From Verrucomicrobiales bacterium (lineage in GTDB: Bacteria > Verrucomicrobiota > Verrucomicrobiia > Limisphaerales > SXTU01): a DNA stretch of 32,454 bases. Position numbers and translations under genes: made by a program. The notes under the pieces are model-generated. The model was not told the DNA's origin and ran no database searches. It worked only from the letters and a program-made list of their open reading frames with translations. The DNA lies in contig SXTU01000268.1 in NCBI GenBank assembly GCA_005791875.1, positions 1 to 32,454 on the forward strand. The letters run 5' to 3'. Shown here in pieces: positions 10,113 to 27,351 of the stretch. The first letter of the stretch is position 1. Each line of letters begins with the position of its first letter.

Positions 10113-10201
10113 TGCCCGCGGATAACGCGGATGACGCGGATGAAAAGCCGCGCCCTTCGCAGCGCTTTCTTATCCGCGCGAATCCGCGTTATCCGCGGGC
10201 A
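10113..10201. repeat. nonamer-armed inverted repeat, (GCGGATGAC)n family
   Basis: TGCCCGCGGATAACGCGGAT begins the left arm at 10113, with 9-bp units GCGGATAAC GCGGATGAC GCGGATGA. The right arm ends ATCCGCGTTATCCGCGGGCA at 10201. Inner AAAAGC and GCTTT also pair. It sits between the convergent ABC transporter and MBL-hydrolase genes and would form a very stable hairpin, so it may act as a bidirectional terminator. Confidence 0.85.
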
Positions 10202-10211
10202 CTCCTCCCTT

Positions 10212-11069
10212 TCAGCCCGCCAACTCCGCGCTGCTCCACCGCTCGCCCGCCTGCAACACCCGGCACTTCTGTCCGAGCTTCCCGCACTCCGCCACGAACT
10301 CGTCCGGCGACGCCGTGTTGAACGTGAACAGGTCGTAGTGCATCGGGATGGCCAGCCGCGCACCGATGGCTTTCGCCAGTTGCGCCGCCTCGCGCCCGTC
10401 GAGATTCCCCGCAACCTTGCGCTCCGGTTTGTCGCCGTTGATGGGCAGCAGCGCCACGTCCACGCGGAACGGGCGAATCCAGTCCTCCATGCCCTCGAAG
10501 TGCTTCGTGTCGCCCGCGTGATACACGCGCCACGGGCCGAACTGGAGCAGGTAGCCGAGGAACTTGTGATTGCCCGCCGCGTCCACCTCCAGCTCGTTGT
10601 GCGCGGCGGGAATCCCGTTGAACGTGAACCCGCCCGCCGACTTCACCTCGCCCGCGCACACCCCGATGAGATTTGGTGCTTTGAGACTCAGCCCGATGCG
10701 GAACGCCCCCGCGCCCTTGTTCGCCTCCGGCAACACCAGCGGCAGCGCAGGCTTGGCCGCGAGCAACGGCTTGAGCGTGTCCGGGTCGAAGTGGTCCGTG
10801 TGGTTGTGGCTGCTTATCACCACATCCACGAAGCCCAACCGCTCCGGCGCGATCACCCGCGCCGTCATGCGCACATGCGGCTTGTCCGACTGCTCGTATT
10901 TGACAGTGAGCGAGTCGGAGAGATACGGGTCCACCAGCGCGTGCCGCCCGTTGAACTGGACAAGAAACCCGCTCTGCCCCAGCCACCAGAGTCGGAAGTT
11001 CGGACGATCGGACTTCGCGGCATCAACATCCGCGAGCAACGCATCGTCTTGGAGCAAGGGCTTAATCAT
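10212..11069 (-). CDS. MBL-fold metallohydrolase (UlaG/YhfI-like)
   Basis: 285 residues of the metallo-beta-lactamase fold. The metal-binding motif HxHxDH is 'SSHNHTDHFD', preceded by 'WWLGQSGFLVQF' and 'ALVDPYLSDS', and followed by later ligands in 'PAAHNE', 'VYHAGDTKHFEG' and 'IPMHYDLF'. This order matches the UlaG-like group, which includes L-ascorbate-6-phosphate lactonase and N-acyl-phosphatidylethanolamine phospholipase-D relatives. The substrate cannot be fixed from sequence. It is separated from the upstream MetE-like gene by an inverted repeat, and converges on the ABC transporter. Confidence 0.85.
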   Translation of the reverse strand: MIKPLLQDDALLADVDAAKSDRPNFRLWWLGQSGFLVQFNGRHALVDPYLSDSLTVKYEQSDKPHVRMTARVIAPERLGFVDVVISSHNHTDHFDPDTLKPLLAAKPALPLVLPEANKGAGAFRIGLSLKAPNLIGVCAGEVKSAGGFTFNGIPAAHNELEVDAAGNHKFLGYLLQFGPWRVYHAGDTKHFEGMEDWIRPFRVDVALLPINGDKPERKVAGNLDGREAAQLAKAIGARLAIPMHYDLFTFNTASPDEFVAECGKLGQKCRVLQAGERWSSAELAG

Positions 11070-11078
11070 GAGTTGGTG

Positions 11079-11175
11079 TTAGCCACGGATTGAACACAGA
11101 ACAAACAGGGATAGGAAACAACTACGGGTGAAATTGCCTCTGTCCGTGTTCGGTCCGTGTTTCATTCGTGGCTTA
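11079..11175. repeat. inverted repeat TTAGCCACGGAT...ATTCGTGGCTTAA
   Basis: TTAGCCACGGATTGAACACA starts the left arm, and the right arm contains GTCCGTGTTCG, GTCCGTGTTTC and ends ATTCGTGGCTTAA, so the arms contain degenerate 9-11-bp direct repeats. The right terminus supplies the TAA stop of the MetE-like gene. It occupies the whole gap to the MBL-hydrolase gene. Confidence 0.72.
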
Positions 11176-16120: not shown

Positions 16121-17347
16121 ATGACCTCCACCGCCCTCGACATCGCCCACGCCCTCGTCCGCATCCCCAGCGTGAATCCGGACTACGATCCTGCCAGCAC
16201 AGGCGAAGGCGCGGTGACGGCTTGGATTGAGAACTGGGGGCGCACGAATGGTTTCACCGTCTGGCGTCAGCCAGTCCTGCCGGGCCGCGAGAATGTCATC
16301 CTCCAGTTCCGCAACGGTGCGGACCACCCGCACTTCATGCTCAACGGCCACACGGACACCGTGGGCGTCGGTGGCATGACCATCGCGCCCTTCGGCGGCG
16401 AAGTGCGTGACGGGCGATTGTGGGGCCGGGGAGCCAGCGACATGAAAGGCCCGCTGGCGTGCATGATGGCAGCCGCGCTGCGGCTGAAGAACTCGCCGTC
16501 CACCTGGCGCGGCACGCTCACCGTCGCCTGCATGGCGGACGAGGAATTCCGCTTCCGGGGCGTGAATGCGATGCTGGAGCAGATGCGCGCTGAACCCGTG
16601 TCGGCGACTTCCAATCGCCGTCCAGACGCACAGGACGCACCCGACGGCGATTGCAAGTCGCCGGCACGGCTGCCGGATTTCGCCGTCGTGGGTGAGCCAA
16701 CGCGCCTCCACGTCGTGCGCGGATGCAAGGGCTGCCTGCGCTTCGCCATCCACGCGGTGGGCCGCGCGGCGCACAGCAGCAAGCCGCACGAGGGCCGCAG
16801 CGCCGTGGTCGCGATGGCGCACGCCATCCTCGCGTTGGAAACCCACTTCACCACACGGCTGGCGCAGATCGTTGCGCCCGGTTTCGGCGCCAGCACCGGG
16901 TCCATCGGCCTTATCAGCGGCGGCACAGGCGTGAACATTGTGCCAGAGCGCTGCACCGTCCAAGTGGACATCCGCTTGCTCCCCGGCCAGGACGCGCGTG
17001 CGACGCAGGAGGAAATTCATGCCCTGCTGCGCGAGCGGTGCCAGCAAGTGGCGGACGTGGAGTGGCAGTTTCCAGAAGCCAGCGTCGTTGATCCCAGCTT
17101 CGAGTTTCCCGCCGATCACCCACTGGTGATGACTGCTTGTTCCGTGCTCAACCAACCCACGCCCGACGTCGTCTTCTTCGGCTGCGACGCCAGCAAGATC
17201 GCCGCGCGCGGGGTGCCGGTGATCGTCCTCGGCCCCGGCGACATCGCGCAGGCGCACACGGTGGACGAGTTCATCGCGCTGGCGGACTTGGAAGCCGGGA
17301 CCGACGCCTACGTGCGGCTCGCGCAATCACTAATGCCCGCCGCCTAG
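16121..17347 (+). CDS. M20-family metallopeptidase (ArgE/DapE/CPG2-like)
   Basis: 408 residues of a di-zinc amidohydrolase that removes acyl or aminoacyl groups. Metal and catalytic residues are visible: 'LNGHTDTVG' (His77, Asp79), 'GRGASDMKG' (Asp107), 'ADEEF' (catalytic Glu141 and Glu142) and 'VVGEPT' (Glu192). A dimerisation lid domain follows ('VGRAAHSSKPHEGRSAV'), and the late His is in 'AQAHTVDEF'. The family includes acetylornithine deacetylase and succinyl-diaminopimelate desuccinylase; the substrate is not assignable. Residues about 160-183 are encoded by a palindromic insertion and form an Asp/Pro/Ala-rich loop between the catalytic and metal residues. The stop TAG abuts another inverted repeat. 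Confidence 0.88.
   Translation: MTSTALDIAHALVRIPSVNPDYDPASTGEGAVTAWIENWGRTNGFTVWRQPVLPGRENVILQFRNGADHPHFMLNGHTDTVGVGGMTIAPFGGEVRDGRLWGRGASDMKGPLACMMAAALRLKNSPSTWRGTLTVACMADEEFRFRGVNAMLEQMRAEPVSATSNRRPDAQDAPDGDCKSPARLPDFAVVGEPTRLHVVRGCKGCLRFAIHAVGRAAHSSKPHEGRSAVVAMAHAILALETHFTTRLAQIVAPGFGASTGSIGLISGGTGVNIVPERCTVQVDIRLLPGQDARATQEEIHALLRERCQQVADVEWQFPEASVVDPSFEFPADHPLVMTACSVLNQPTPDVVFFGCDASKIAARGVPVIVLGPGDIAQAHTVDEFIALADLEAGTDAYVRLAQSLMPAA
16599..16666. repeat. 68-bp palindromic element inserted in frame in the M20 peptidase gene
   Basis: TGTCGGCGACTTCCAATCGC (arm to 16622, ending CGTC) is mirrored by GACGGCGATTGCAAGTCGCC (arm 16643-16666, ending GGCA). The 24-base arms match at 22 positions, around a 20-base loop. 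It is translated without a stop, giving roughly 23 extra residues ('SATSNRRPDAQDAPDGDCKS'). Confidence 0.85.
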
Positions 17348-17449
17348 GAGCGCGGCCTTCAGGCCGCAGAAAGGTCCGCTTGTCTGGCGCGCTCAAATCA
17401 CGAAGCGCGCTCAGCCTGCTCGCCTTCTGCGGCGTGAACGCCGCGCTCC
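17347..17449. repeat. inverted repeat GGAGCGCGGC...GCCGCGCTCC
   Basis: GGAGCGCGGCCTTCAGGCCG (then CAGAAAGG) at 17347 is mirrored by CCTTCTGCGGCGTGAACGCC (then GCGCTCC) ending at 17449. Each arm is itself partly palindromic, and an inner GCGCGCTC is repeated. It begins at the last base of the M20 peptidase stop codon TAG. Confidence 0.8.
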
Positions 17450-18645: not shown

Positions 18646-18670
18646 CCGCCGAGGTGAGGAGGCGGAGGGA

Positions 18671-18733
18671 GAGAAGTATTTAGTGATTAGTCGGCGTAAG
18701 GTCTGACCTTTTACTAATCACTAATCACTTCTC
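18671..18733. repeat. heptamer-armed inverted repeat, (TGATTAG)n family, copy 1
   Basis: GAGAAGTATTTAGTGATTAG (then T) at 18671-18691 pairs with ACTAATCACTAATCACTTCT (then C) at 18713-18733, with 19 of 21 positions complementary. Both arms are 7-bp arrays of TGATTAG. The loop holds a further small hairpin, AAGGTC-T-GACCTT. It lies between the aminotransferase and RluA-type genes. Confidence 0.88.
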
Positions 18734-18766
18734 CCTTTCCCGCCGTGCGCTACTCTGTCAGCGCAC

Positions 18767-26804: not shown

Positions 26805-26810
26805 AGGCCG

Positions 26811-26889
26811 GAGTGATTAGTAATTAGTAATTGGTGAAACGCAGTTCCGGTCACAGCCGCCAACTAATCACTAAGCACTAATTACTTTC
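26811..26889. repeat. heptamer-armed inverted repeat, (TGATTAG)n family, copy 2
   Basis: The left arm reads TGATTAG TAATTAG TAATTGG TG from 26813, and the right arm ACTAATC ACTAAGC ACTAATT ACTTTC to about 26888. It is the same heptamer family as 18671-18733. The stop of the DUF2017-like gene (AGT AAT TAG) is read from the right arm, so its last residues Ser-Asn come from the element. Confidence 0.85.
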
Positions 26890-27351
26890 CCCTCCTCCCA
26901 ACGCCTCCAACAGCCGCGACTGGAAGAGTGCGCAAATCTCCATCGCCGCCACCGCTTCGAGCTGCCCGCCTTTCGCCAGCGGGATCAGCTCCTCGGGCCT
27001 GCCCAGCTTCAGCCACAGGCCGACGCGCACCTCGTTCAGCACCCGGAGCAGCCAGTCCACCTGCGCCGTGGTCAACCGCAGGCGGAAGCCGCCCTTCGCG
27101 TCCTCGGCGAAGCGGCCCTGCTCGCCAAGGAACGCGTCCACGAGGCGCTTGTGTTCCGCGCGTTGCTCGGCCAACGCCTCGGTGAGCGAGCGCTCATGCT
27201 CGGCCAACTTCTTCTCATCCCCGCTCTTCGAGAGCGGCGCGACAGGTCCGCCGCTCACAGGAAACATCTTCATCACATGAATGAGCAATGCCCGCTCCTG
27301 CTTCGCGAGGTTGAAGACGAACAACCCGTCCTTGGCCTCCACGAGTCTCAC
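26878..27351 (-). CDS. DUF2017-like protein encoded with clpS
   Basis: 157 residues, mostly alpha-helical. A long charged helix ('DEKKLAEHERSLTEALAEQR') is followed by 'TTAQVDWLLRVLNEVRVGLW' and a C-terminal 'AAMEICALFQSRLLEAL'. The 'W...LN..R..L...LG' pattern and the position directly after clpS fit DUF2017, best known beside clpS in Actinobacteria. Function is unknown; a role with Clp proteolysis is inferred from context. The start overlaps the clpS stop by four bases (ATGA), so translation is coupled. The stop lies within the downstream heptamer repeat. Confidence 0.65.
   Translation of the reverse strand: MRLVEAKDGLFVFNLAKQERALLIHVMKMFPVSGGPVAPLSKSGDEKKLAEHERSLTEALAEQRAEHKRLVDAFLGEQGRFAEDAKGGFRLRLTTAQVDWLLRVLNEVRVGLWLKLGRPEELIPLAKGGQLEAVAAMEICALFQSRLLEALGGGESN

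Follow-up and report, generated by a model that had tools for sequence, protein, structure and literature searches.

A family of REPIN-like palindromes with in-frame copies in the genes of a Limisphaerales genus

The stretch of DNA analysed here (the window, 32,454 nt of contig SXTU01000268.1 from a Verrucomicrobiales bacterium) carries a palindrome within a gene of the M20 peptidase family. Very probably, this palindrome belongs to a genus-specific family of small mobile palindromes that are non-autonomous and consist of two inverted REP hairpins with about 20 nt between them, and owes its survival to a tolerant loop of the encoded protein. The family is dispersed over at least 84 places of the genome, orthologous sites may hold or lack a copy, copies occur in frame within genes, and the M20 loop is empty in five sister species.

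The palindrome in the M20 gene

The features of the locus are as follows (window coordinates):

16121–17347, plus strand: host gene, M20 family ArgE/DapE-like metallopeptidase/deacylase, 408 aa (from the ORF, Pfam and the nearest structures)
16586–16663, plus strand: net insertion of 78 nt or 26 residues in comparison with empty orthologues, RAEPVSATSNRRPDAQDAPDGDCKSP
16596–16669, no strand assigned: REPIN-like palindromic element, 74 nt, matched over its full length by the family model R1 (80.2 bits, E=3e-18)
16596–16622, plus strand: left arm, 27 nt, with the inner hairpin GGCGACTTCCAATCGCC at 16603–16619 (one internal C/A mismatch in the M20 copy)
16623–16642, no strand assigned: variable spacer between the arms, 20 nt
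16643–16669, minus strand: right arm, inverted, 27 nt, with the inner hairpin GGCGACTTGCAATCGCC at 16646–16662 (minus strand)

The product of the ORF matches Pfam Peptidase_M20 (E=1.6e-30) and M20_dimer (E=9e-20); among proteins of solved structure, DapE and ArgE are the closest to it. Acetylornithine deacetylase is the best NCBIfam match; all matches among the 25 listed fall below their cut-offs. The reading frame stays open across the palindrome, which contains no stop codon, as the original prediction had stated. Its placement of the insert between a Glu pair and Glu192 was confirmed as well, the acidic pair being E141/E142 and the glutamate of the GEPT motif E192.

The 24-nt arms with 22 matches proposed earlier (16599–16666) are real, but they form the core of longer arms of 27 nt which are complementary at 25 of 27 positions. 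Similarly, an addition of about 68 nt or 23 residues had been expected and proved too short; the net insertion includes 10 nt to the left of the palindrome (CGCGCTGAAC) which are not present at empty sites. The palindrome is far above chance, its inverted-repeat score being 21, whereas the best scores of 20 equally long first-order Markov windows were 10–14.

An AlphaFold2 model of the protein (mean pLDDT 75) gave pLDDT values below 50 for residues 159–181, a stretch flanked by a helix (147–157) and by the strand (187–191) leading to E192. The disordered loop is a prediction, because the underlying alignment of 11 orthologues is shallow; an example of a tryptic peptide spanning the predicted insert is RPDAQDAPDGDCK. 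The insert peptide is most likely a neutral disordered loop rather than a functional part of the enzyme.

Whether homologues have the same loop, as the original prediction had asked, can be judged from nine close M20 orthologues of congeners, which were compared with that of the window's genome (G000). Two of them (G005 and G001) share the palindrome at the same codon, five (G009, G010, G003, G006 and G002) have an empty site (..LEQM directly followed by xRLPDF.., or similar) and two carry unrelated inserts, again at the same codon. The insert of G007 is a palindrome with 28-nt arms (GGTAGGGCGAGACTCCGTCGAGCCCCAT, 93%) and that of G004 contains a short hairpin (CGGCAGGCA/TGCCTGCCG). All inserts at this site (G000, G005, G001, G007 and G004) are in frame. 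The M20 proteins encoded by the congener loci L089, L092 and L094 are 79–85% identical.

A dispersed family of inverted REP units

The search for further genomic copies of the arm proposed in the original prediction was far from empty. Tens of copies were returned by a DNA search of the window's genome (4.7 Mb), and a covariance model search detected at least 84 distinct places, a number to be read as a lower bound. Most copies in this genome have a length of 73–77 nt, a second class measures 97–101 nt, and some are solo arms. The class of 97–101 nt suggests a subfamily with its own history; its members (L160–L179) have a longer, partly conserved spacer (..GTGGGCCACAGCAGTTCGAG..CACCCGCAA..). 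G005 gave 151 strand-matches to the family model, most places being counted on both strands, and its number of matches is similar to that of G000. The family was matched in all 10 congeners. Among 116 genomes sampled from the order, all four members of the genus matched, and of the 112 others 4 did so with few matches each (E<=1e-8). Judged from these searches, in which all genomes compared are incomplete MAGs, the family is largely restricted to one genus of Limisphaerales and nearly absent elsewhere in the order.

The consensus of the element is CCGTGCCGGCGACTTGCAGTCGCCGTC-(about 20)-GACGGCGACTGCAAGTCGCCGGCACGG. The 27-nt arms each form a hairpin of their own (consensus GGCGACT-TGC-AGTCGCC); this internal palindrome had gone unnoticed in the original prediction, which was right in describing the arms as not tandem-periodic. 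In 32 copies, 15 double-change cells were counted for pairs within arms, a value reached by 0 of 500 shuffles. The two variable stem pairs of 116 arms in G000 were AC/GT (48), GT/AC (22), AT/AT (20), GC/GC (14) or otherwise (12), with 104 of the 116 arms perfectly paired at both positions in four alternative states; the pairing tally in this analysis was 147/156 within arms versus 105/156 across arms. Covariation occurs within the arms and not between them, which identifies the element as two REP units in inverted orientation and thus as REPIN-like. Single-hairpin forms of ~31 nt were found at orthologous sites in sister species.

Cross-arm pairing as a conserved structure was rejected, since it was weaker than pairing within arms, with 8 double-change cells in the 32 copies and 34 of 500 shuffles reaching this value. 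Compensatory change in place was rejected as well: among copies at orthologous sites, double Watson-Crick switches were counted 16 times, but there were also 42 single changes by which a pair is gained or lost. Decay and switching are thus mixed at these sites, where another copy may have replaced the resident one.

Two Y1_Tnp genes were detected in G000. One of them (L074:1417–2184) encodes 255 aa and matches the NCBIfam REP-associated tyrosine transposase (RAYT) below its cut-off. It is surrounded by GGGGACACTCYTGTCCCC repeats, which represent another REP family, matched 77 times in the genome (<=1 mismatch). Its ORF reads through a copy of its own flanking REP near the N terminus (..RKGDTLVP..); the transposase may thus include REP-derived residues, unless its true start lies downstream. 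An arm of the R1 family was found beside Y1_Tnp genes at 0 of 16 loci in 11 genus genomes. The link between REP and RAYT is visible for the other family and not for R1, and mobilisation of R1 elements in trans is therefore putative. Because a RAYT may have been missed in incomplete genomes, we kept the name to 'REPIN-like'; the R1-family repeat to be expected beside any cognate HuH/Y1 gene is GTGCCGGCGACTTGCAGTCGCC.

The window holds further palindromes. One at 3011–3079 (GGACACTCCTGTCC/GGACAGGAGTGTCC) is a copy of this other REP family (GGGGACACTCYTGTCCCC), which clusters around a RAYT gene on contig C79. Directly after the M20 stop codon (17347–17449) lies a palindrome with 25-nt arms (GGAGCGCGGCCTTCAGGCCGCAGAA, 92%), the left of which looks internally palindromic, and a perfect 20-nt inverted repeat (TGCCCGCGGATAACGCGGAT) at 10113–10201 overlaps the start of ORF 10131–11093. 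The palindromes at 18664–18740 and 26810–26895, which have ATTAGT-like tandem arms, are probably what the original prediction called the tandem-armed class. The second coding-tolerant type that it distinguished from this class does exist and is unrelated to the tandem-armed palindromes, and several more types fill the same coding slots in sister species.

Copies inside genes

About one third of the full copies in G000 (25/71) lie within one continuous reading frame; in G005 this applies to 21 of 40 examined copies, and one more contains a stop. Coding calls were made with a codon-usage score of the flanks only, which is the sole basis for copies without a Pfam match. Pfam-supported hosts include LigA, KsgA/RsmA, Lnt, a GCV_T/YgfZ-like protein, two MFS transporters, a heptosyltransferase-family protein, a PMT_2 protein and a PSCyt2/PSD1 protein. 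The insert of LigA adjoins the match to the C4 zinc finger. In this ligA gene (L018:1501–1700) two different palindromes stand in a row, an R1-family element followed by CCCCTCACCCCGGCCCTCTCTCCC..GGGGGAGAGGG, and both are translated in frame directly before the zinc-finger match.

Flanks on the same strand were in frame with each other in 25 cases and out of frame in 5 in G000, and in 23 versus 6 in G005 (binomial against 1/3, p=2e-8 and p=5e-7, respectively). This bias is if anything understated, because the out-of-frame cases may be adjacent genes. An excess of element lengths of 1 modulo 3 among in-frame copies was not significant (p=0.18 and 0.71). The consensus arms contain no stops in any of the three phases, and the element is therefore unusually harmless. 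The phase reading RAGDLQSPS..DGDCKSPAR is preferred, being used by 20 of 25 copies in G000 (p=2e-6) and by 16 of 22 in G005 (p=2e-4), with some sites common to both species; the M20 copy reads in a minority phase.

At 12 further sites, congeners carry at the same codon a short linker, an element of the same family, a collapsed form or an unrelated insert. A 13-nt linker occupies the slot of the ygfZ-like gene in G001, G002, G008 and G009, and in G007 this gene contains a palindrome (GACTCCGTCGAACCCCA) closely similar to the M20 palindrome of that genome. The simplest reading is that the loops at these slots tolerate insertion, in which case whatever lands in frame would survive. CGTGC is a candidate target motif and no more than a lead: it occurs in 4/6 ygfZ-like, 2/3 C180, 1/5 M20 and 1/5 C118 sequences at empty sites and is missing from others, and a scar is indistinguishable from a target. 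A clean target-site duplication, which together with the terminal inverted repeats of a parent IS would mark a MITE, was not seen at the few empty sites compared.

Origin of the insert and relation to known elements

Among other explanations, the insert might be a functional loop of the M20 enzyme, kept by protein selection for substrate specificity or oligomerisation. Its retention in three species with 85–87% identical proteins and the preference for one reading phase across the family are in line with such a role, which is nevertheless improbable, as the site is empty or holds unrelated sequence in sister species, the loop is predicted to be disordered and the same peptide recurs in many unrelated proteins. 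If the palindrome were an RNA element (terminator, attenuator or regulatory hairpin) that is maintained because it acts on the M20 mRNA, this would account for the strong stems, for their covariation within arms and for the 8 copies found between convergent genes in G000. We consider this explanation highly improbable: an Rfam scan across the window gave no family match, the palindrome lies in the middle of a gene whose reading frame continues, five sister species do without it and the host genes are unrelated in function. A local origin by chance or by templated quasipalindrome correction, without mobility, is hardly credible, for although imperfect palindromes can be perfected by template switching, dispersal is needed to account for the related places, at least 84 in number, and for the empty orthologous sites; local correction is refuted as the origin and could contribute to the maintenance of the stems.

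The preferred reading remains a copy of a mobile family surviving in a tolerant loop. Copies would insert widely, presumably mobilised by an HuH/Y1 transposase acting on single-stranded hairpins, and selection would remove those that break genes. The survivors would be insertions with a net length that is a multiple of three, located in tolerant surface loops, and such filtering would explain why unrelated palindromes occupy the same codon in sister species.

In-frame palindromes are already known from the Rickettsia palindromic elements (RPEs; reviewed in PMC10969869), which are short and dispersed, in many cases lie in frame within genes that are unrelated to each other, and yield a recurrent peptide on translation; several families coexist. 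The present family resembles them in behaviour, namely in-frame insertion in unrelated genes and absence from orthologues, and not by membership. Compared by description, it differs in phylum, in length (73–100 nt versus about 150 nt) and in having a REP hairpin as its arm. Intragenic REPs occur in many bacteria; the highest count of the GTAG type was reported for the verrucomicrobial Opitutus terrae, including one in its DNA ligase gene, and different REPs are found at about the same recB site in two Xanthomonas species (PMC3733652). Opitutus terrae belongs to the same phylum, and its REP dimers inside ORFs encode 20–30 residues (PMC3733652), whereas the present family occurs in another order, Limisphaerales, and largely in one genus.

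With respect to the REP superfamilies, no unpaired terminal tetranucleotide of the GTAG type was found, and the outer ends CCGTGCC/GGCACGG are not a variant named in PMC3733652. The CGTC superfamily is characterised by a terminal CGTC, AT pairs at stem positions 1–2, a loop of 4–5 nt and an unpaired CCA-like tail (PMC3733652); many inner ends of the present family read CGTC, but its stem starts with C-G/G-C, the loop has 3 nt and a CCA tail is absent. The likeness to REPINs (PMC3116915) comprises two inverted REPs, a short variable spacer, solo or collapsed forms and a high copy number. The REP units are inverted and form hairpins of their own, and the 84 or more places in G000 fall within the tens to hundreds of copies per genome that characterise REPINs. 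REPINs are associated with RAYT transposases (PMC3116915), whereas no linked RAYT was found for the present family. It is a new family which fits neither tagged superfamily as described in PMC3733652 and which comparison of the congeners resolves well, and the general phenomenon is already known. As both in-frame palindromes and intragenic REPs had been described, the novelty lies in the family and not in the kind.

Present in the M20 gene and in some two dozen others without breaking them, the element illustrates how proteins can come to incorporate selfish DNA, and in-frame palindrome insertion is extended to a freshwater lineage that is free-living and represented by 11 related genomes. As each gene can be compared in its filled, empty and differently filled states, the entry of repeats, the filtering by frame and phase and the tolerance of loops become testable. 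Annotators should be aware that such inserts can split profile matches or be mistaken for functional insertions. It is conceivable, though rather doubtful, that effects at the protein level have shaped the family, one phase being preferred although all are open, and that a set of slots in housekeeping proteins is filled and refilled by several unrelated palindrome families. If this is true, mobile hairpins would be a standing source of new disordered loops.
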